The notes below the pieces were generated by a model. That model was not told the DNA's origin and did no database searches. It saw only the letters and a list, made by a program, of their open reading frames with translations. DNA of 29,588 nucleotides from a virus. Position numbers and translations under genes: made by a program. Where the stretch lies: positions 1 through 29,588 of IMG/VR virus record IMGVR_UViG_3300032073_000158, one strand, 5' to 3'. The stretch's first letter is position 1, and the number at the start of each line of letters is the position of its first letter. Shown piece after piece: positions 2,467-24,239 of this stretch.

Positions 2467-5400
2467 TGGGATTTAAGATTTTTGGCAAAGAGATTGATTT
2501 CTTAGATGAAAACAATGCAATAACTGCCGCTGTAATAACCGTCACTGCTATACTACTAGCCCCTCCCACTGGAGGTGCGAGCCTTGCGTGGGCTGGAAAG
2601 GTTTTTGCAGTAACCTTAGCAGCTGGTGCAACTCTTAAAGGTCTACTATCTGAGGATATAGATTTAAACGCAAACAAGGGATACTTAATAACCCAAAGAG
2701 GGGCTGCACTAGACCATCAGATTATATACGGTAAAGTTAGAGTTGGAGGAGCTTTAGTTTACGAAGCTAGCTCTGGTACAGATAACAAATTCCTACACAG
2801 GGTCATTGCTTTCTCTGGGCATGAGATTGAAAGCTTTGAGGGTATCTATTTTAATGACGAGCTAATAACACTTAGTGGAAATAACGTAACGTCACCCTCT
2901 AGGTTCAACGGTAAGATTAAGATTGAAACTAGACTAGGTACTGATACTCAGACAGCTGTTACAAATCTAAGTCCGCCTTCTGAGTGGGACAGTGACTGTA
3001 AGCTATTAGGTATATCCTATATTTATATTCGTTATGAATATGACCAAGATGCTTTCGCTGATGGTATACCGAATATAACTGCGCTCATAAAAGGTAAGAA
3101 GGTTTACGATCCACGTACAAGCACAACAGCCTGGTCTAGTAACCCCGCACTTTGTCTTAGAGATTACCTAACCTCTCCTTACGGGTTAGCTGAGAACACT
3201 TACAACATAGACGATACTGTAATATCTACAGCAGCTAACGTTTGTGATCAGATGAGTGAAAAATCTACGTTTATCACTGCAGGTTCTTTTGTTATAGGTA
3301 ATGAGTACAAGATTAGATCAGGTACAGGTTTTACTAGTATTGGTGCTACTGATAATAACGTAGGTACTATCTTTACAGCTACAGGTGTAGGTACAGGAAG
3401 TGGTACAGCTTATGATCGTAGGTACACCCTCAATGGAGCTTTTACAACCTCTATAACACCTTCAGATATCTTACAAGACTTGACGTCAACCATGGGAGGT
3501 CTACTATGGTACTCTCAAGGTAAGTGGCGTATGAAGCCCGCTTACTATACAGCACCTGTTATAAACTTAACTGACGATGACCTAAGATCTGGTTTTAGTG
3601 TTTCTACTAGACACTCTAGAAGAGATAACTTTAATGTAGTTAAAGGAACCTACAGGGGTCCAGAAACTTCTTATCAGATAACAGATTACCCTCAAGTTAC
3701 CAATGTAACACAAGCTGGTTCCCTTGTTGTAGGTTCTCCCTATACAATAACTGATTTAGGCAATACAAGTTGGAATACAGCTGCTGGAACAAGCGGAGTA
3801 ACTTATGCAAAAGGAGATACATTCACAGCAGCAGCAGCGGTTTCAGGTACAGGTAAAGCCGATGCATTCTTAGGGGCTGACAACGGTCAAGAAAGTATAG
3901 CTGACTTAGAGTTACCTTTTACCAACAGCTTCTCTGAAGCTAGACGTTTAGGTCTTATATCTTTAGAGAGAAACAGGCAGCAGTTACAAGTACAAGCATC
4001 TTTTGGTATGAGGGCCTTTGAGGTTCAAGTAGGAGATGTGGTTACTATAACTAACTCTAGGTTTGGTTGGACTAATAAGACCTTTGAGGTTTTAACTTGG
4101 AACTTTGGATTGGCAGGTGAACTTGAGCTTGCCGTAACTATGACTTTAAAAGAGATTAGTTCTAGTGTTTTTGACGAGACAGACGATGGGGCTGTACTGG
4201 AGTTAGACAACACTACACTGGCTTCTGCTTTTGATGTACAGACACCTACCCTAGCTACACCTGCTACTAGTGCGGAGATAAACGAGGATGGTACTTCTGT
4301 ACCTACAATAGTGTTTACTTGGTCAGTAACTACAGATGATCTTATAGCTCAGTACGAGTTTCAGTGGAAGAAGAGTACAGACACAGAGTATAACTCTTCT
4401 GTGTTACTTGGAAAAGAGTTTACCTTATTCCCCGTTATTAGTGGGGTTACTTACGACTACAGAGTAAGGGCGTTTAACTTCTTAGGTGTTAGGTCTGCTT
4501 TTGCCTCTGGTAGCATAGCTGCCACCAAAGATACAACCGCTCCCCCTCAACCGCAAGCTCCAACAGTCACGGCGGGAGTAAAACAGCTAGAGATTTCATG
4601 GGCTACTTATTTTGATCCATTAAACGCAAACGATCCAGAAAGACCCTCCGACTTCGCTTTCATGGAAGTTTTTGAGGTAGTTGGTGGAACCACTTATCAA
4701 CGAGGGACATCAGCGGGTACAAGCTTTGTGCATGGGGGATTAACTCAAAACACAACTCACACCTATAAGATAAGGGCAGTTGATTATTCTGGAAACACAA
4801 GTGCCGTAAGCCTAACCGCAAACGGAACCGTTGCGGCTGATGTGCAGGGGCCAACGGGGCCAACTGGTCAAAGCGGGCTTATAGTTACGCTTAACGGCGC
4901 GGATATTCCCATGAATAACCAGACTGGAGAACCTCCGGTAGAAACAGGAGTTGACCCCCGTCCTAACAACTCTACGACACAGGGAAAACTAGATGAAGCA
5001 TTCCTAGCCGTAAATCCATTATTGGCTCAGATGAGCGATGTTCCCGAAGATGCTACTATTTGGGGTAGGTTTGTTTTAACTAAAGAGCAAACATTTACAA
5101 CTACAGCTGGACAAACGACTTTAACTATTTCTGGCGGTCATACACCTGATAAATACACTAGAATAATTTATGATGGTGAACAGCTTATCAGCGGAGACTT
5201 TACCTCTGCTGCCATTGATTCCGTAACTGGCAATAGCGCTTCTATAACTTTTACAAATCAACTCTTAAATCGCCTTGGTCTTACATCTGTACCATCAGGT
5301 AAAACAGTTGAGGTTTACTATATACAAGCGTCTGCAAGAAAATGGGATTACACCTCACAAGACTGGACAGACAACTCCGCTATATTTGATGTACCAATTA

Positions 5401-8598: not shown

Positions 8599-8945
8599 TT
8601 GGTCAAATAATAGGTAGTGTAGTTGGTCTAGCTACAAGTGTAATCGACAGTAAGACACAGATCAAACTTACTGAGGCTGAGATCAAGAAGAAACAGCTTA
8701 CAGGTGAGATTGACTGGGATCTAGCTGCAATTCAGGCTACACAGAATAGCTGGAAAGACGAATGGATAACTTTACTTTTCAGTATTCCCCTGATACTAGC
8801 CTTTTGTGGTGACTGGGGTAATGCAATAGTCCAGGCTGGTTTTGCAGCACTTGAGACTATGCCAATATGGTATCAGTATTCCCTCGGTGGGATCGTATCA
8901 GCATCCATAGGAATTAGATCGGTATCTAAATTCTTCGGTAAATAA
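8595..8945 (+). CDS. GTA-type 3-TM holin-like protein (116 aa)
   Basis: The pattern matches what I know of the GTA_holin_3TM family (PF11351). There is an N-terminal Gly/Val-rich helix (IGQIIGSVVGLATSVIDS), a charged middle helix ending in NSWKDEWITLLFSIPLILAF, and a further hydrophobic C-terminal segment (YSLGGIVSASIGIRSVSKFF). The W-K-D-E-W motif before the second hydrophobic span is characteristic. It would permeabilise the inner membrane for the endolysin. The start overlaps the preceding stop by four bases. Confidence 0.65.
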   Translation: MIGQIIGSVVGLATSVIDSKTQIKLTEAEIKKKQLTGEIDWDLAAIQATQNSWKDEWITLLFSIPLILAFCGDWGNAIVQAGFAALETMPIWYQYSLGGIVSASIGIRSVSKFFGK

Positions 8946-9172: not shown

Positions 9173-9356
9173 ATGAGGACTTACCCCATTGATGACAGAG
9201 GTAGTCTTTAACTACCCACCTATTTCCCTCTAGGGTCTGTATACCTAGAGCTAGGGACTTTAGACAAACATCCTCTGAAGTGTATAAAACAGAAGGTGAT
9301 ACGCTCTTACAAGTTGTGGTGTCTAAATGGCACGTCAATATTATCGCTGTCCACAT
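9171..9356 (-). CDS. Small Cys-rich exported-like protein (61 aa)
   Basis: The protein begins with a short hydrophobic stretch (MWTAIILTCHL) and contains four Cys (C9, C16, C31, C54), with spaced Trp residues. This looks like small exported or membrane-anchored phage proteins held by disulfides. It overlaps the preceding DUF3310 gene by 50 bases. No alternative ATG exists, and the hydrophobic start fits this class. A second protein of similar style is encoded at 17899-18120. Function unknown. It is the last gene of the leftward operon. Confidence 0.5.
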   Translation of the reverse strand: MWTAIILTCHLDTTTCKSVSPSVLYTSEDVCLKSLALGIQTLEGNRWVVKDYLCHQWGKSS

Positions 9357-9788: not shown

Positions 9789-11687
9789 CTAAGTTAAATC
9801 TACTATTTCACAAACATCACCGCTACAAGCCATCGTTTGCATACCAGCGGTGTTGTCCTCTTGTTCATACTCCGATAACTGAGACCAGTCAATAGCCTTT
9901 GGCATCTTTTGTGAAAGATCAAAATACTCTTCCATTGTGCAATCTTGATAAGGTGCTTGCTGATAAGTGTGATCTGTATGAGGTAAGAATGATACCCCTG
10001 ACATTTCATCAAAGTGTTTATAAACAAACGCACCCACTTCCATCCACTCATGGTCACGTACAGATATCGTTACGCTTGGCTTATGCTCACACCATGACCT
10101 CTGATAGATCAACCATGTCTCCAGCTGCTCTAGGGCGCTCATATCGTTCCTAGTAACAGAGAAAGGTGGTGACTTAACTGGGAAACTGAATACTGTGGTA
10201 GTGTCTCCCTTCATTACACAAGGTTCATTAGGTATCCCTTTGTCCTTCATAAACTGTGTCAAGGGATCTTTATTGTCACCACGCACAGTGCGGATATAAT
10301 AAGGGCTGTGGCGAGCGTGTATTCCACTGGCACTATCCACCAGTTGAGATACTGTTCCCGACGGTTTCACGCAGCTGATAGCAGTAGAACGAGGTATACC
10401 AAGACGGTCAGCCCATTCAGCATTAGTATCAACAGCCACGGTGCGTAAGTGCTCAAGGGTATTCTCCAAGCCTTCGTTCCTACAGGTCATTAAAGCGTTA
10501 TCCATTATGCCTGTGAGTGACACACCGAGCAGTCGCTCTTCTTCGGTGTTGGTAGTCCACACCTTTCGCAAATACGGAAACTTGGTGTAGGTTGATTGGA
10601 TAGTTCCCAGTATAGTTGCCAGACGGACTTTACGCTCAAGATCTTCCAAAGTGTCCGTATCACGTACAACACACTCCGTAAGATTGCAGAACTGATTAGG
10701 GCGCAAAATGATCTCACTGCACGGGTTAGTACCGAACTCGTAGTTAGGATCACGTCTGCCATTTTTTGCAGCTTGTACTTTACTTGCTTGACGATTGAAT
10801 ACACCACGTTCCCCTGATTTACTTTCTACTAGAGCTTGCCATTCCCGCATGAAGGTTTCCATATCGGGCTTCTCTGTGTAGCTCACACTATTGTTAGCCA
10901 ATGCACGATGGGCTGCTGTCTCCCACCACTGTCCTGACTTAGCATGACGCATACGGTCATCACTCAGGTTGGACAGAGAGATCATAGCACTACGGCGTAC
11001 CCCACCAACTACAACAATCTGACCAATGAAACACATAAGATCATGGCACTCGATAGATGACAGCTTACGACCTTGAGCGTTCTTGAACGTAGTGATAGCA
11101 AAGTTAAACAGCTCTACTAAAGGTGCAGGACCACTAGCTCTACCACCAAACGTCTTAAGTCTAGCACCTGCAGGACGTACCAAACCTATATCCCACTGAG
11201 GGATCTCACCAGCCCAGAGAAGTGCAAGTACTTGCCGAAAGGCTTTAGCCCACCCTTCCTTACTGTCTTTGACAACGATTGTAGTCTCACTGTCAAACAG
11301 CTCAGGAACCTCTGGTAGTTTCTGAACAAACTGCCTCTCTACTGAGAAGCCTACACCTGTACCACAAAGCAAAATAAACATAGCTTCATCAAACGCTTTA
11401 GGGTCATCCACAGGCAAGTAGCTACAGTTGTACCCAGCAGTATTATCCCTAGTCAACGCTGGACCTGCAGTCATCATAGCTCTCATAGAAGGCATAACCT
11501 CTAAACCTAATACAGCTTGCTCTAGCTCAGATATGTTGTACTCAGGGCCTACTTTTGGACGCACTACATTAGTCATATACCGAGAGACAGTTTCGCTCCA
11601 GTCTTCCCGACCTTTTCCATCGAAGTACTTTGCATATCGAGACTTAGCAATAAAAGTCTGGTAGTCTGTTGGTAAATAATTATTCAT
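9789..11687 (-). CDS. nrdJ: Adenosylcobalamin-dependent (class II) ribonucleotide reductase, 632 aa
   Basis: The enzyme reduces ribonucleotides to deoxyribonucleotides for phage DNA synthesis, using B12. All residues of the monomeric Lactobacillus leichmannii RTPR mechanism can be placed by spacing. C88 (NCSY) and C334 form the active-site pair (equivalent to C119/C419). C323 in NPCSEI is the thiyl-radical Cys (C408), with N321 and E325 (N406, E410). C621-x4-C626 near the C terminus is the electron-relay pair (C731/C736). The LLCGTGVGFSVER block and GGRASGP are further family features. There is no separate beta subunit or activase nearby, as expected for class II. Its start overlaps the MazG-like stop (ATGA). 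Length is slightly shorter than the bacterial enzyme (739). Confidence 0.93.
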   Translation of the reverse strand: MNNYLPTDYQTFIAKSRYAKYFDGKGREDWSETVSRYMTNVVRPKVGPEYNISELEQAVLGLEVMPSMRAMMTAGPALTRDNTAGYNCSYLPVDDPKAFDEAMFILLCGTGVGFSVERQFVQKLPEVPELFDSETTIVVKDSKEGWAKAFRQVLALLWAGEIPQWDIGLVRPAGARLKTFGGRASGPAPLVELFNFAITTFKNAQGRKLSSIECHDLMCFIGQIVVVGGVRRSAMISLSNLSDDRMRHAKSGQWWETAAHRALANNSVSYTEKPDMETFMREWQALVESKSGERGVFNRQASKVQAAKNGRRDPNYEFGTNPCSEIILRPNQFCNLTECVVRDTDTLEDLERKVRLATILGTIQSTYTKFPYLRKVWTTNTEEERLLGVSLTGIMDNALMTCRNEGLENTLEHLRTVAVDTNAEWADRLGIPRSTAISCVKPSGTVSQLVDSASGIHARHSPYYIRTVRGDNKDPLTQFMKDKGIPNEPCVMKGDTTTVFSFPVKSPPFSVTRNDMSALEQLETWLIYQRSWCEHKPSVTISVRDHEWMEVGAFVYKHFDEMSGVSFLPHTDHTYQQAPYQDCTMEEYFDLSQKMPKAIDWSQLSEYEQEDNTAGMQTMACSGDVCEIVDLT

Positions 11688-14411: not shown

Positions 14412-14900
14412 TTAAAAACCAGATGCCATATCTGCGTCTGGAACATAAGATACTAAGTCAAGGACACCTAGCTTCTCTAGGCGGTGACCTGCCATGTTAC
14501 CATCACCATACATAACCACCTTGATACGAACTTTGGAACCGTTACCAATGAGACCATCCATCTCAAAGTCCCAACGATCATTGACAGTATCTCCGTCCAT
14601 CTTAACCACAACAGGTGGCCCACCGAACTCCTCTACAGACCGATTGACGTGGTTACGATAGATCTTGAAGTATTTACCAATACCGAAACCTTCTCCGTCA
14701 TAAGGGTCTTTAAGGGCAATCTTCTTACCACGGGCTTTAGCCTCAGACATGATCTTGTCTAAGTTCTCCTGATCTTCTGGATAGAACTCTGCATTGTACT
14801 GTCCATCAGGTACAAACTTTGTGTCCATTTCTGATGTACGAAGTCTAGCCCATTTGATGTAGCCATCCATTACGATTGTCATTGCTTTACGTTTAGCCAT
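14412..14900 (-). CDS. Single-stranded DNA-binding protein, T7 gp2.5-like (162 aa)
   Basis: The OB-fold-sized protein follows its own promoter (14929-14958) and sits beside DNA polymerase and exonuclease. Segments such as TIVMDGYIKWARL, GIGKYFKIYRNH, VVVKMDGD and GNGSKVRIKVVMY fit gp2.5-like or DUF2815-like SSBs. The C terminus is acidic and ends in Phe (PDADMASGF), as SSBs that recruit partners do. It would coat single strands during replication. The family call rests on these features and on context, not on a search. Confidence 0.7.
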   Translation of the reverse strand: MAKRKAMTIVMDGYIKWARLRTSEMDTKFVPDGQYNAEFYPEDQENLDKIMSEAKARGKKIALKDPYDGEGFGIGKYFKIYRNHVNRSVEEFGGPPVVVKMDGDTVNDRWDFEMDGLIGNGSKVRIKVVMYGDGNMAGHRLEKLGVLDLVSYVPDADMASGF

Positions 14901-14965: not shown

Positions 14966-16873
14966 CTAGTGTATTTCTGCATAATTATCACCAAAGCTAT
15001 AATCTATGCCAAGCGGTACATTGAGCTTAACCAAGTTGTTTACACTCTCAATACTGTCTTTCATTATCTTTGCTACATTCTCTTCTTCTCCTTTGTTACA
15101 CAGGACAATAACTTCATCGTGGAACTGTCCTATGATGTTTAAACCAGCTTGCCTACATTTACCCACCCACAAGTCAAAGCAGTAAACACCTGTGCTTTGA
15201 TTAAGTGTACTAAACTTATCCTTCTCGTAACGTAACGAGTGGTACATACCGCTGATAGGGTTCTGTAGCCAAGAGCTACCGTTTACTTCACGAACCTTAA
15301 CACTGTCGGCTACAGCTCCTATAGACCAGTTTCTTTCCCAGAATGCAGAGAGCATGAAGTCAGCCTCTGAGTAAGTACCTGCCATCTGTACAGCCAAACT
15401 CTTTGGACCTACACCGTAAGTGGCTGCATAATTAACAACCTTGAATTTCTTACGCAGGGCCTTAAGATCAAGCTCCCCTTTGTTGTAGGCATCTATGTCA
15501 GACTGAGAGATCTTACCTGAGTGTTTGGCTAAGTCCAAGTGGGGATCAAAGCCTTCTACTGACATCTCGTCAACATAGTCTGGGTCATGGTCATACATGT
15601 AGTGTCGCTTAGTTGTATCTTCCAGTGATACCATATCAGCACCACACAAGACATGACCTTCGGGTGCAATCAGGCATCCACGGATCTCTTTACCCCAAGG
15701 CTTTTCCACTGAGGGTAGATTTACCAAAGGACGAGCGTGACGGAACCGCATGGTGTTAGTGAAACCTGCAATACTGGCTTTGACATAGCCATCCTCTACA
15801 GAGTTTACGAAAGCTTTGAAGATAGCCAGACGATGGTTGATTATCGTAAGACCTTCTAACAGTTCTACAGACTTATCTCTTTCTATCAAGTCTTTGACAG
15901 ATTGACATAGTTCATTGTTAACACGTATCTGAGGTACACCTTGAGACTCCATCTTACCACTATCTTGTTTTAACTTACGTGCACCTAATATGTTTTGTGC
16001 CTCTTTGTTAAAGTTAGAGTGACCTTCCTTACCTTTGTAGTTGTCAATATAAACAGCAGGTTCCCAACCCAAGCTAAACAACCAGTCCTTTACCTGTGTG
16101 ATGGAATTAGGATTGGCGTCCACCTCTCTCAGGACTACCTTAACAGTCTCTGTGGTATGGGGTAGCTTCATATCATCCATAAGAGTTACCCAGTCACTAG
16201 CAAGCTTAGTCAGATCACCAGCAGAGTTAAGCCACTTGGCAGGTCTCTTACGAGTGCTGTAGACCTTTTGATTAGGCATAGCTTCTGTAAGCTGATCGAC
16301 TTTATCCGCCTTCATAGCTTCCAGTTGAGCTAAGTGGGTCTCAGCTTTATCTACATCCAATTTCCACTGTAGCTTCTCCTGATCTGCAGCACAGTCCAGT
16401 TTGAAGCCTAAGTAGCTAATGCACTTTTTAAGATCTTCCTCTTCTTTATAGAGCTTCTTCATCTTGTACATAAGCTCGTTATACAACCGAGTGTTAATCT
16501 TAACGTCTTCTTCGCACCTGTGTATATACTCCTCTACACTGAGGCTAGACCAATCGTCTATCTGGGGCTTAGGTACACCGTACTCTACGCCATAGCCCTC
16601 AAGACCATGACGAGGACGGTCATAGTTAACATACCAAGACAAAGCTAGAGTATCTATTACCTGTTGATCTCTCCTAGGCTTAAACCCAATAATCTTCTCA
16701 AGCACAGGTAAGTCATAACGTATGATGTTGTGACCTATAATCTTACCGGCTGCACATAGAGCTGCCTTCATCTCTGCGTAGTCTGTGGTAGACACCACAA
16801 GATCTCCCTCAGTAAAACTAAGGCAGTGTATCTTTGTAGCATCAAAGCCATCTGTTTCAATATCGAATATCAT
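14966..16873 (-). CDS. Family A DNA polymerase with 3'-5' exonuclease domain (635 aa)
   Basis: I chose the ATG at 16873, two bases after the previous stop (TAGAATG), so the protein begins MIFDIETDG at exonuclease motif I; a start nine codons earlier is possible. Numbering from M1 here: DIE (D4, E6), N49/D54 in GHNIIRYD and D123 (EEDV) form the proofreading site. Palm motif A is GADMVSLE (D413), motif B is RKKFKVVNYAATYG (R474, K478, Y482), and motif C is FHDEV (H585, D586). Y482 is at the position of E. coli Pol I residue 762, as in T7. Exonuclease motif III has Arg where Tyr is usual. There is no N-terminal 5' nuclease domain; a separate exonuclease gene supplies it. Replicative polymerase. 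Confidence 0.92.
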   Translation of the reverse strand: MIFDIETDGFDATKIHCLSFTEGDLVVSTTDYAEMKAALCAAGKIIGHNIIRYDLPVLEKIIGFKPRRDQQVIDTLALSWYVNYDRPRHGLEGYGVEYGVPKPQIDDWSSLSVEEYIHRCEEDVKINTRLYNELMYKMKKLYKEEEDLKKCISYLGFKLDCAADQEKLQWKLDVDKAETHLAQLEAMKADKVDQLTEAMPNQKVYSTRKRPAKWLNSAGDLTKLASDWVTLMDDMKLPHTTETVKVVLREVDANPNSITQVKDWLFSLGWEPAVYIDNYKGKEGHSNFNKEAQNILGARKLKQDSGKMESQGVPQIRVNNELCQSVKDLIERDKSVELLEGLTIINHRLAIFKAFVNSVEDGYVKASIAGFTNTMRFRHARPLVNLPSVEKPWGKEIRGCLIAPEGHVLCGADMVSLEDTTKRHYMYDHDPDYVDEMSVEGFDPHLDLAKHSGKISQSDIDAYNKGELDLKALRKKFKVVNYAATYGVGPKSLAVQMAGTYSEADFMLSAFWERNWSIGAVADSVKVREVNGSSWLQNPISGMYHSLRYEKDKFSTLNQSTGVYCFDLWVGKCRQAGLNIIGQFHDEVIVLCNKGEEENVAKIMKDSIESVNNLVKLNVPLGIDYSFGDNYAEIH

Positions 16874-16874
16874 T

Positions 16875-17483
16875 CTAACCCCACTGTTCTGCCATAGCAT
16901 CTGCTATGCCTTGATAAGTCATACTACGTTTCTTCCAACGATCTTTAGAAGGAGAAAGATAGTGTATTCTGTTACGCTCTGCTTTAGTAAGCTTTAGCAT
17001 ATCCTCTTTTACATTATCTGTTTCCTGTAACAAAGGCAACCCTCTTAACCACAGACAAGTAGCTTTCTGCTCCTTATGCCCGAACATCCAAGGTTGTACA
17101 GTCTGACTTTGGTGCCTAAACCCAATCAACTCTTTTGCATACTTGTGCATAATAGGGTTCTCCACACAGATCTTAGGGATCTCTAAATCAAGGAACAAGC
17201 TAAAGAACTCTGCACCCTCTCTCAGTCTGTCCCACCTAGATGGGTCTCTGTGCAACCAAGATACCCCTGCATTGGTCAGGTAAGTGCAAGGTGGATGAGC
17301 TATAACCATATCCCAAGAAGTGTCGTAAAGGACATCTCTTACGTCTCCTTTGTAGTGATAAGGACTGTCATCATCTGAATCCAATAAGTCACAAGATACA
17401 GCGTTATGTCCTTTAGCTCTGAAAGCCTCTCTGACAGTCCCAGAGAACTCACAAGCTACGAGAATGTTTTGCTTAACGTACAT
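16875..17483 (-). CDS. Short cytosine-C5 methyltransferase-like protein (202 aa)
   Basis: Motifs resemble C5-DNA-methyltransferases: a SAM-binding CEFSG (11-15) and acidic D32, then HPPCTYL (63-69, catalytic Pro-Cys of motif IV) and ENP (108-110, motif VI). The protein is about half the usual length and lacks an obvious target-recognition domain. Related proteins are common in phages and are annotated as DNA methyltransferases. Possible roles are protection from restriction or modification of the phage's own DNA; neither activity nor target is shown. A catalytic Cys in PPC fits a C5 mechanism. Confidence 0.65.
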   Translation of the reverse strand: MYVKQNILVACEFSGTVREAFRAKGHNAVSCDLLDSDDDSPYHYKGDVRDVLYDTSWDMVIAHPPCTYLTNAGVSWLHRDPSRWDRLREGAEFFSLFLDLEIPKICVENPIMHKYAKELIGFRHQSQTVQPWMFGHKEQKATCLWLRGLPLLQETDNVKEDMLKLTKAERNRIHYLSPSKDRWKKRSMTYQGIADAMAEQWG

Positions 17484-18120: not shown

Positions 18121-18284
18121 AGATACTCCACTACTACACCAGTGTTCCACCTCTTTGCTTCCTTCTCAGCTTCTTCACGGTCAGTAAAGACCCATACTTT
18201 AGTGTCGTATGTCCAAGGGTTCTCTTTTCTAACGAAGGTGTATTCACCTTTCTCAATCTCTATTTGAACTGCGTACCTACCCAT
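18117..18284 (-). CDS. Small YAVQ-type protein (55 aa)
   Basis: Starting at the ATG at 18284 (AAGGA nine bases upstream), the protein reads MGRYAVQIEIEKGEYTFVR, a Trp/Asp/Lys segment, then a helix with DREEAEKEAKRWNTG and ends in VVVEYL. It looks like a two-strand plus one-helix mini domain shared with the 17733-17912 product. The reading frame upstream of this ATG is a shadow of the Zn-ribbon gene at 18277-18399. Function unknown. Confidence 0.6.
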   Translation of the reverse strand: MGRYAVQIEIEKGEYTFVRKENPWTYDTKVWVFTDREEAEKEAKRWNTGVVVEYL

Positions 18285-18442: not shown

Positions 18443-20008
18443 TCATGAGTGTGTCTCCTCTAATGTAAACGAATGTGAGTCAAATAGAAGAGTACCTGCC
18501 ATACCTTCTTCAGAACAAGGGCGGTTCTTCTCTACCCGTAGCTGCGTAGTATTACGCTCATGGTCATCCTCTGACAATTTATCACGGTACAGGTCAATAA
18601 TCACAGAAGCTCTCTGACCGATCATCTTACAGTACTTAGGGTCACCATTCTCGTTTGTATGTGCAATGGTCACAATACCTACGTTAAGCTCTGCAGCAAG
18701 CTTAGAGAGCCTTACAGATAGATCTGCAAGCTGTTGCTCCTTGCTTTCCTCAGAAGAACCTACAACTACATCTTGGATAGGCTCAAAGAATATATACTTA
18801 CACTCACAACCTTGACTTAGATAACGTATCTGCTCAATGAAATCATCAGTATTACCACCGTCAGGCATGTAGAACTGATAGATCAACTCATCCTTGGTAA
18901 GATCCCTGATGGCATCCTCTACTAGGTCGTGTACCCCAAGGGCATCAATGATATCCCTACGTGTCAGATTCTGGTTTAAGTGATAAGACACAAGACCTAA
19001 CAGAGAACGTAGCTTGGTTTCCTCAAGGTGCCAAGAGGCGAAAGGTACACCCCGTTTGATCATGTTGTACTCAAGGTAACGCATGACCTCAGTTTTACCA
19101 ATGCCAGTAGGTGCTTTGATCACAGTGAAGTGACCCTGCATCAAACCCATGATCTTATCATCAAGAGCTTCGATACCTGTAGGTACATAGTTATACTCAG
19201 GGCTTTCCTTGAATAGCTTGACGAACTGATCTGAGGTATTTAGAATATTCTCAGGGGTATATTTATTAGCATTCCACCAAGCGTTACTGAACTCCTTACG
19301 TGCATTATTGGTAAGGAAATCATTAGCGTCTTTGTAGACATCATGGATAACCCGATAGGTTTTATTCGGGAACATATTGAATATCTTAGCAGCCACTGCA
19401 TTACCAGCTGCATCATTATCAACACTGAGGACGATCTTCTCAAAGCTATCAAGCCAAGGTGTACACTTCTCCCAAAGCCTCTTAGAAGGAGTAGCAGAGG
19501 GTAAAGACACTACAGGTGTGATGGACTTACCACCCATGATCTCCTGCACTGAGAGAGCGTCTATCTCACCCTCAGTGATGGTTACCATACGTGCACAACC
19601 TGCAGGGAATATGTTCATACCAAATAGTTCATCTTGACTAAGGTTCTTAGCCGAGAAGGTCTTAGGCAGTACCCTGATCTTCTTTCCACCGGAGGGGTAG
19701 ACATACTCTTGTTTAACTACGTCTCCTGCGGCATTCTTGTAGCTGCGTACATCATACATCTCCATTACACTACTAGAGATACCTCTAGCTGCAATATACT
19801 CATAGTCTTTTATCTCTGGTATCTCTACATCAAAAGCCATTTCTTCATCACTCCTATTGCTTTTACGTTTCACCACTTTATCTATTGCGAAAGACCAATC
19901 ATCGCAAGACTTACAATGTCCTATTCCTTCATCTGTATTGTAGCTGTAGGCATCAGAGCTGCCACAACCCTCTACATTAGGACAAGGTAATCTACCTATC
20001 TCTGGCAT
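18443..20008 (-). CDS. Primase-helicase, T7 gp4-like (521 aa)
   Basis: The ATG at 20008, with AGAGGA upstream, is preferred; an ATG seven codons earlier (20029) also has a weak signal. Numbering from the earlier start: a zinc-ribbon C16-x5-C22-x16-C39-x2-C42; TOPRIM motifs ITEGEIDAL (E153, E155) and LSVDNDAAG (D204, D206); then a RecA-like helicase with Walker A APTGIGKT (306-313). This is the T7 gp4 architecture: it makes primers and unwinds DNA ahead of the Tyr-type family A polymerase. The gene is first in the leftward replication operon, behind the promoter at 20061-20089 and beside the iterons. Confidence 0.92.
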   Translation of the reverse strand: MPEIGRLPCPNVEGCGSSDAYSYNTDEGIGHCKSCDDWSFAIDKVVKRKSNRSDEEMAFDVEIPEIKDYEYIAARGISSSVMEMYDVRSYKNAAGDVVKQEYVYPSGGKKIRVLPKTFSAKNLSQDELFGMNIFPAGCARMVTITEGEIDALSVQEIMGGKSITPVVSLPSATPSKRLWEKCTPWLDSFEKIVLSVDNDAAGNAVAAKIFNMFPNKTYRVIHDVYKDANDFLTNNARKEFSNAWWNANKYTPENILNTSDQFVKLFKESPEYNYVPTGIEALDDKIMGLMQGHFTVIKAPTGIGKTEVMRYLEYNMIKRGVPFASWHLEETKLRSLLGLVSYHLNQNLTRRDIIDALGVHDLVEDAIRDLTKDELIYQFYMPDGGNTDDFIEQIRYLSQGCECKYIFFEPIQDVVVGSSEESKEQQLADLSVRLSKLAAELNVGIVTIAHTNENGDPKYCKMIGQRASVIIDLYRDKLSEDDHERNTTQLRVEKNRPCSEEGMAGTLLFDSHSFTLEETHS

Positions 20009-20060
20009 AATTTTTCCTCTTTTAGTCATATCACTCTTCTCAACTGCGAGAAGTAAAACT

Positions 20061-20089
20061 ATAATACACTATAGTGTTACTAAAGACAA
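20061..20089 (-). promoter_or_regulatory. Sigma-70-like promoter of the replication operon
   Basis: On the minus strand TTGTCT (20084-20089) and TATTAT (20061-20066) are separated by 17 bases, giving a start near 20054 and a short leader before the primase-helicase gene. The 12-bp palindrome ACACTATAGTGT (20066-20077) sits across the spacer next to the -10, a likely repressor or activator site. AGTAACACT-type half sites lie nearby (see findings). Confidence 0.65.
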
Positions 20090-20134
20090 TAATAACTTTT
20101 AGTATTTATAAATAAAGTAACACTAAAGATAGGG
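20090..20134. other. AT-rich stretch between primase promoter and iterons
   Basis: This 45-bp stretch is about 80% A+T (AATAATAACTTTTAGTATTT and on), flanks the iteron array and holds the AGTAACACTA operator half site. It is the natural candidate for a DNA-unwinding element. No gene is present from 20030 to 20366. Confidence 0.45.
20116..20125. promoter_or_regulatory. AGTAACACTA half of an operator-like inverted repeat
   Basis: AGTAACACTA here is the exact reverse complement of TAGTGTTACT at 20072-20081, 34 bases away, across the primase promoter. The same word recurs in other control regions of the window. This fits DNA binding by a dimeric regulator or looping, not a transcript hairpin. 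Confidence 0.5.
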
Positions 20135-20246
20135 ATTTCTATCGCAGCCTTATTTCTATCGGGGGACAATTTCCACTGGCGGGGTAGCTAAACCAATTTC
20201 TATCGGGGGCCAATTTCTATCCCAGGCCCATTTCTATCCCAGGGCC
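20135..20246. repeat. 17-bp iteron array (six copies)
   Basis: Copies of a 17-bp unit, consensus ATTTCTATC(G/C)(G/C)RGGSCM, begin at 20135, 20152, 20169 (diverged), 20196, 20213 and 20230. They form two sets of three, each in exact 17-bp register, separated by 10 extra bases. The array lies between the AT-rich promoter region of the primase-helicase operon (20090-20120) and 12-bp repeats. Tandem iterons beside an AT-rich stretch and a replication initiator or helicase gene are the usual form of an iteron origin. That function is inference; no initiator protein is recognised. Confidence 0.75.
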
Positions 20247-20322
20247 TAAGACACCTGGATTAAAACTAAGGTTAGACCCTGGCCAGGTTCCAGGCTAAGA
20301 TCTAAGCCAGGGTCCAGGGTTA
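20239..20322. repeat. 12-bp repeat array, copy 1 (seven units)
   Basis: Seven 12-bp units start at 20239 and run to 20322 in register, e.g. CCAGGGCCTAAG, GACCCTGGCCAG, GATCTAAGCCAG, GGTCCAGGGTTA. They belong to the same CCWGG/CTAR-rich family as the large array at 23313-23588. They contain the perfect palindrome CCTGGCCAGG (20278-20287). No coding frame is present. Confidence 0.65.
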
Positions 20323-20325
20323 AGG

Positions 20326-20360
20326 CAAAAGAAAAACCCTAGCTAATCTCTTAGCTAGGG
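20326..20360 (-). terminator. Strong intrinsic terminator of the 20.4-23.0 kb operon
   Basis: On the minus strand a perfect 10-bp stem (CCCTAGCTAA/TTAGCTAGGG at 20360-20351 and 20346-20337) with a four-base GAGA loop is followed by TTTTTCTTTT. It lies six bases after the stop of the 63-residue gene. It separates the leftward zinc/peptidase operon from the 12-bp and iteron arrays, so transcription does not run through the presumed origin. Confidence 0.9.
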
Positions 20361-20366
20361 CTTAGT

Positions 20367-23205: not shown

Positions 23206-23296
23206 TGATTAGCTGCAATAAAAGCCTAGTGTTTTCTTATAGTTATGGCGTGGATGGTTGGCTTAGGTTTATATTAGGTTTCCCATCGGGGGTTCT

Positions 23297-23308
23297 TTTG
23301 TGATCACA
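23297..23308. promoter_or_regulatory. Second TTTGTGATCACA palindrome
   Basis: This is the second copy of the palindrome at 23192, exactly 105 bp away (about ten helical turns), directly before the 12-bp repeat array. The equal helical face suggests co-operative binding or looping. Confidence 0.5.
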
Positions 23309-23312
23309 TAGG

Positions 23313-23588
23313 TGCTGCCCTGGCCTGGTCCGAGGCTAAAACTTTAGGTCATTTCCCATCCTGGGCCTTAGCTAAGGTCTAACCCTGGAGCCTGGGCTAG
23401 TTCCTACCCTGGGGCCTGGCCTGGAGCTAACCCTGGAGCCTGGCTTAATTTCTACCCAGGGTCTAGCCCTGGAGCCTGGCCTGGAGCCTGGCTTATTTCC
23501 TATCGAGGGTCTTAGCTTAGGGCTATGCTTAGGGCCTAGATATGGCCTATGCTATGGTCTAAGCTATGGCCTAGGCTATGATCTAGGC
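23313..23588. repeat. 12-bp repeat array with 48-bp higher-order period (23 units)
   Basis: The whole 276 bp can be read as 23 units of 12 bp without a gap, most fitting CTGGRGCCTGGC or TAKGGYCTARGC. CTGGAGCCTGGC occurs four times exactly (23433, 23469, 23481, and with one change at 23385). Every fourth unit (starting 23349, 23397, 23445, 23493) is an ATTTC/GTTCC-YAYC variant that also matches the core of the 17-bp iterons, giving a 48-bp higher-order repeat. The last four units (23541-23588) are near-identical TATGRYCTARGC. About fifteen CCWGG sites fall in 23318-23492. An AT-rich run (23592-23620) follows. No coding function is likely. Candidate origin or protein-binding array. Confidence 0.8.
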
Positions 23589-23622
23589 TAGTAAATTAAT
23601 TTAATAATAATGCTTTTTATTG

Positions 23623-24080: not shown

Positions 24081-24156
24081 TAAAAAATAAGGTTAGCCTA
24101 TGACATAATGTCGCACCTACTTGATTTCTGCTCTTGACACACTATATACCCACTAA
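24081..24156. other. Non-coding part of the packaging control region
   Basis: No reading frame is supported between 24015 and 24435. Besides the listed sites there is an 11-bp palindrome GACATAATGTC (24102-24112) and a lone TTGACA (24134-24139) without a -10 at a usable distance. The rest is AT-rich. Confidence 0.4.
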
Positions 24157-24239
24157 CTTAAGTAACTCTTAAGTAATTCTTTAATTTATAATACATATAG
24201 TTATTATAAGACTATAGTAACACTTAAGTGTAACTTAAG
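24157..24239. promoter_or_regulatory. Four CTTAAG boxes in helical register around a TATAAT
   Basis: CTTAAG occurs at 24157, 24168, 24223 and 24234. Each pair is 11 bp apart and the pairs are 66 bp apart, all multiples of 11. A TATAAT lies between the pairs (24187-24192) without a good -35. The second pair overlaps a near-perfect 20-bp palindrome, AGTAACACTTAAGTGTAACT (24216-24235). The arrangement suggests a regulator bound on one face with possible looping, acting on rightward transcription. Confidence 0.5.

Follow-up and report, generated by a model that had tools for sequence, protein, structure and literature searches.

No function is known so far for the one-strand nicks of T5, phiKMV-like and tf phages (PMC3517423, PMC11780129). 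In tf, each site of the nick motif has been shown experimentally to be a single-strand break (PMC3517423), and a group of 61 related phages has the motif as a conserved feature (PMC11780129). We have counted 14 tf sites, all of them on the strand of the early genes and against an expectation of 2.4, in a genome that combines a convergent early/late layout with a primase/helicase, a polymerase and an OB-fold protein. How a T7-type replisome is started in phages without a phage RNA polymerase is another poorly understood question, and it is touched by the repeat array described here. The window, i.e., the whole stretch of 29,588 nucleotides analyzed (IMG/VR record IMGVR_UViG_3300032073_000158), is part of a CRP-6-type Roseobacter phage. 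CRP-6 is the founder of an ocean-wide group (PMC6918029) and the closest isolate to the window (MK613348; terL 84%, primase 61%), which has replication and structural genes in common with the group and matches CRP-6 in gene order and in the two-arm layout of convergent early and late genes. Family searches have identified a T7-type primase-helicase with a 4-Cys zinc region (18443-20029, minus strand), a family A DNA polymerase (polA, 14966-16900, minus strand), an exonuclease, a RusA-like resolvase, MazG and a B12-type ribonucleotide reductase, together with terminase, portal and a lambda-J-like tail protein. The conserved, unannotated 162-aa gene at 14412-14900 (minus strand) has been considered as a binder of unknown type and rejected in that role, its product being predicted to be a single-stranded DNA-binding protein (SSB) with an Enc34-like fold. 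A single-subunit RNA polymerase (PF00940) has been found neither in the window nor in five complete CRP-6-type relatives; as a positive control, the same search detects this enzyme in CRP-7. Initiators of the lambda-O (PF04492) and Rep_3 (PF01051) types have likewise not been found in CRP-6-type genomes.

The original prediction had described six repeat units beside an AT-rich element and upstream of the primase-helicase, arranged as two triplets in exact 17-bp register, and all of this has been borne out. Five exact copies of ATTTCTATC have been located on the plus strand by sequence scan (20135, 20152, 20196, 20213 and 20230), the sixth unit at 20169 reads ATTTCCACT with three differences, 27 bp separate the triplets, and no additional exact copy of ATTTCTATC occurs anywhere in the window. 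In 100 order-2 Markov simulations the copies of any one 9-mer within 110 bp never exceeded two, compared with the five observed, and identical 9-mer pairs 17 bp apart numbered 0-2, compared with 12. When the minus strand is read, the unit becomes longer (CCCCCGATAGAAAT), and the seemingly degenerate copy is CCGCCAGTGGAAAT, a regular variant (AGTGG form) of the family motif described below. Array A (20135-20243, minus strand) consists of six such 14-bp copies (20135-20148, 20152-20165, 20169-20182, 20196-20209, 20213-20226 and 20230-20243), which read toward the leftward primase-helicase gene. Five more diverged copies on the same strand (set B, 23278-23509; copies at 23278-23292, 23351-23365, 23400-23413, 23448-23461 and 23495-23509) are mostly 48 bp apart and are embedded in 12-bp-periodic repeats. 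The window positions 20247-20334 and 23330-23600 are occupied by low-complexity CCWGG/CTWAG-type 5-mers (YYWRR) joined by 2-nt linkers, with a period of 12 bp and higher periods of 24 and 48 bp; DNA of this kind is also present beside the arrays of the relatives L022, L023 and L035.

The 87-bp stretch adjoining the array (20048-20134) is indeed AT-rich, with 77% AT compared with 56% in the window and 50% in array A itself. It contains a consensus match to a sigma70-like promoter (TTGTCT-17-TATTAT, 20061-20089, minus strand) before the primase-helicase, about 45 bp downstream of the end of the array, as well as AGTGTTACT/AGTAACACT and ACTATAGT boxes, which are found again ahead of the late operon (24156-24229). 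Because of this promoter and these recurring boxes, the sequence of the stretch suggests a promoter/operator region rather than an unwinding element. On the other side of the array, an intrinsic-terminator-like hairpin (20334-20363, minus strand, consensus match) would end the upstream leftward unit. Array A thus lies between terminator-like and promoter-like sites, and is therefore probably not transcribed and probably acts as DNA. The region before the late genes (24156-24229) carries CTTAAGTAAYT units 11 bp apart together with AGTAACACT/ACTTAAGT boxes, similar to the boxes at 20068-20124, and its TTAA-N7-TTAA spacing is presumably reminiscent of a CtrA site.

Each array unit is one form of a 14-bp minus-strand motif, CCYNC-RRTGG-AAAW, and array A is the clustered form of this CRP-6-type-phage-specific motif (about ACCCCYNCRRTGGAAAW), read from one strand. 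No motif of this type has been found described in the open-access literature searched, and blastn searches of phage records with the window or with one array have given no useful match. Upstream of the primase in related contigs, the units take the forms CCCCC-GATAG-AAAT, CCCCC-AGTGG-AAAT, CCCCC-GTGGG-AAAT and CCTCC-GATGG-AAAT on the primase strand. Scanning the collection with two array patterns has yielded 46 and 24 stretches. For the first pattern, CRP-6-type genes are present on the retrieved piece in 38 of the 46, and one more (L118) derives from the complete genome G015; for the second, all 24 lie in CRP-6-type contigs, one being a piece of G002. Arrays encoded by the host have been rejected, as none of the 18 bacterial-genome matches has a CRP-6-type gene. 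Open reading frames in the IMG/VR contigs have been called mechanically, and completeness has been judged from recurring ends for G001, G015 and G016 and from the match to a relative's map for G002. G015 and G016 (L163-L168) are two near-complete CRP-6-type genomes with recurring ends and circular lengths of 47,325 and 46,380 bp.

Among the 87 distinct array versions in related contigs, position and orientation are conserved. The array is on the primase strand wherever a primase is found on the same locus (73/73), opposite to terS in 26/26 and to terL in 21/21 cases, and it lies between terS and primase, i.e., where the late genes give way to the early ones, in 18 of 19; the nineteenth is CRP-6, whose linear record has been opened inside this very interval. 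The CRP-6 array (44771-44871) comprises four copies of CCTCCGATGGAAAA and one variant and differs from that of the window in its spacing of 21-23 bp and its place before gp01 rather than the primase. Just upstream of it (L098, 44510-44730), CRP-6 has several copies of a second dispersed repeat family, about GTTGCARAAATGTCAC. Array and primase are separated by about 0.1 to 4.4 kb, and the gene downstream can be the primase, an M28 peptidase, an RMF-like gene or CRP-6 gp01; it is therefore the place that is conserved, rather than the promoter of one gene. Cooperative iteron or enhancer arrays are usually helically phased. In the arrays studied here successive copies are mostly 15-28 bp apart, and helical phasing is absent (R of 0.09-0.24 for periods of 10-11 bp). 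Odd spacings (15, 17, 19, 21, 23, 25 and 27) outnumber even ones by 101 to 14 in 35 non-redundant arrays and by 51 to 18 after similar spacers have been collapsed, counts that are partly dependent through shared ancestry.

The motif is not restricted to its arrays. With a motif model trained solely on the arrays of other phages, the sites of CRP-6 outside its array have been found on the early strand only, and the other strand outside the array has none. As a null model, the annotated genes have been codon-shuffled in place 200 times: the early genes contain 12 sites in sense (2.4 ± 1.5 expected) and the late genes nine in antisense (2.0 ± 1.4 expected), numbers reached in none of the 200 shuffles. 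In 14 contigs, scanned with leave-group-out models, 62 sense sites have been observed versus 15.8 expected and 34 antisense sites versus 13.0, and on the other strand two and six sites versus 4.4 and 6.7; these contigs are related and not independent, while CRP-6 is significant by itself. The ratio of motif strand to other strand in the five complete CRP-6-type genomes is 26:0, 19:1, 17:2, 18:2 and 17:0, so the motif is nearly exclusive to one strand genome-wide, and no enrichment is seen in three phages of the cobavirus group, whose primases are related. A model-free k-mer comparison has picked out the same words, the most strand-skewed 8-mers being CAGTGGAA (44:2), CGTGGGAA (28:1) and GTGGAAAA (24:0) with array copies included. 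The isolated copies moreover have flanking bases in common that lie outside the scored positions (A at -3 in 51%, C at -1 in 61%). In the window, dispersed minus-strand copies are CCTCCGGTGGAAAG inside the primase-helicase (19682-19695), CCTTCGTTAGAAAA (18225-18238), GCTACAGTGGAAAT and CCCTCAGTGGAAAA inside polA (16360-16373 and 15702-15715), ACTTCGATGGAAAA (11613-11626), CCCTAGAGGGAAAT (9222-9235) and, antisense to late genes, CCACCGAGGGAATA (8877-8890) and CTCCCAGTAGAAAT (1522-1535); the only plus-strand match at the same threshold is CCTCCGGTAGAAAC (4932-4945). We know of no classical iterons that are dispersed genome-wide on one strand. Strand-polar processes include replication, nicking, packaging and exonuclease control.

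Our best single guess, a tentative one that falls short of an even chance, is that the array is a cis-acting replication-start element. This reading is favored because the array occupies the conserved early/late gap in probably untranscribed DNA, because the phage has a T7-type replisome with an SSB, and because no phage RNA polymerase, lambda O or Rep_3 protein has been found. Both replication initiation as the process and the binding of the array by a protein are what we infer. The element would sit in the untranscribed stretch that separates the late from the early genes, where a putative, probably phage-encoded protein would recognize the tandem copies and prepare one strand by melting, loading or nicking; the T7-type primase-helicase, the SSB and the family A polymerase of the phage could then start at the prepared strand, and the scattered same-strand copies would serve this strand-specific activity as weaker, secondary sites. 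Candidate binders present group-wide are the primase-helicase, TerS and the SSB, and the binder may alternatively come from the host or from another phage gene. The 481-aa and 77-aa proteins originally put forward as binders have been rejected as general ones, as they have been found neither in CRP-6 nor in other motif-bearing relatives. The suggested GC-skew check has also yielded no evidence for an origin: at four-fold sites the skew depends on the strand of the genes alone and does not switch at the array. Together with the lack of helical phasing (R about 0.1-0.2), this counts against a replication-start element, as do the dispersed one-strand copies in sense and antisense genes, which are not expected of an origin iteron. 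From the proposed iteron origin, the tandem direct repeats in register have thus been retained, in a non-coding and probably untranscribed gap where the replication genes begin, whereas the copies outside the array speak against a simple iteron origin. The idea of an initiation mode other than a T7-type promoter and without a recognizable Rep protein agrees with the three negative family searches (PF00940, PF04492 and PF01051), and the one-strand dispersal of the motif weakens it.

The dispersal is what the most probable of the other readings would explain, in which the copies are strand-specific nick sites as in T5, phiKMV and tf, with the array as a hot spot close to the boundary of early and late genes. 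A phage nickase would cut the motif strand at the dispersed sites, possibly in connection with packaging or replication. By analogy, this is possible though on the unlikely side. The tf signature is likewise confined to one strand, that of the early genes, and its 14 sites compare with 17-26 matches in the five complete CRP-6-type genomes (0-2 on the other strand); as in tf, the copies occur in sense and antisense genes, are conserved in the group and accompany a convergent two-arm layout. Tandem arrays have, however, not been described for nicked phages, no nickase has been identified, and CRP-6-type genomes show no enrichment of the tf and phiKMV consensus sequences. Unlikely as well is a role in transcription regulation, in which an operator or activator array would serve early or replication-operon promoters and the other copies would be weak sites. 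The array of the window does end close upstream of the sigma70-like promoter, and the boxes beside it recur at the late promoter region, but distance and downstream gene differ among phages, helical phasing is lacking, and the dispersed copies lie within genes, many in antisense and with fixed strand. The copies that lie antisense to late genes speak against a role in promoters or at the transcript level, and the motif as phage promoter has been rejected for this distribution and for the missing single-subunit RNA polymerase. A packaging site (pac/cosB-like), to which the small terminase subunit would bind close to the ends of the genome, is improbable: the array is always within the interval from terS to the early genes, where linear genomes of cobavirus ICBM2 and tf end, and TerS and TerL are common to the group, but its distance to terS often amounts to some kb, it can also be found past early genes, and packaging leaves the dispersed one-strand copies unexplained. 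Very improbable is a nick-array origin, in which a nickase would cut one strand at each copy, the cuts 15-28 nt apart would release short oligonucleotides and leave a single-stranded gap for loading of the T7-type primase-helicase, and dispersed nicks would be the same activity elsewhere; if true, the enigmatic nicks in the genomes of T5/tf-like phages would thereby have a function. Least credible is the reading of the copies as sites at which the primase of the phage itself would preferentially prime the lagging strand, with a cluster at the replication start, despite the T7-like 4-Cys zinc region and the GACC preceding many array copies (the complement of T7-type GGTC sites), since the window copies lack GAC, the rare 14-bp motif is far longer than known primase sites, and cobaviruses with a 53% identical primase lack it.

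The motif is thus found group-wide in widespread marine Roseobacter phages, bunched where the early genes begin, and may mark the start of copying. As cultured CRP-6 has the one-strand motif both dispersed and concentrated in one array, the questions of nicking and of replication start can both be addressed with a single isolate of an abundant marine phage group. The T7 replication origin, a promoter with an AT-rich region, is approached in the T7-type primase-helicase with its zinc region and in the family A polymerase, but differs in that no phage single-subunit RNA polymerase is detected in the window or the five complete relatives. Lambda ori and iteron plasmids share the tandem direct repeats of a protein-sized unit, the non-coding gap by replication genes and the adjoining AT-rich DNA; unlike in these systems, copies are dispersed genome-wide on one strand, the 15-28 bp spacing has no helical phase, lambda O and Rep_3 are not found, and the AT-rich part is promoter/operator-like. 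With respect to the nick motifs of T5, phiKMV and tf, the CRP-6-type motif has another sequence and adds tandem arrays at the early/late boundary. Because the tf motif TACTRTGMC and the phiKMV core CCTACTCCGG are not enriched in CRP-6-type phages, and have been rejected there, the likeness to tf may amount to 'works like' at most, not to membership. Nevertheless, both have a short one-strand motif that occurs in sense as well as antisense genes and is conserved throughout a phage group (in the tf group, with about 9-14 copies in each genome), and the nick-site motif of phages such as tf is the nearest described signature and the only parallel found.
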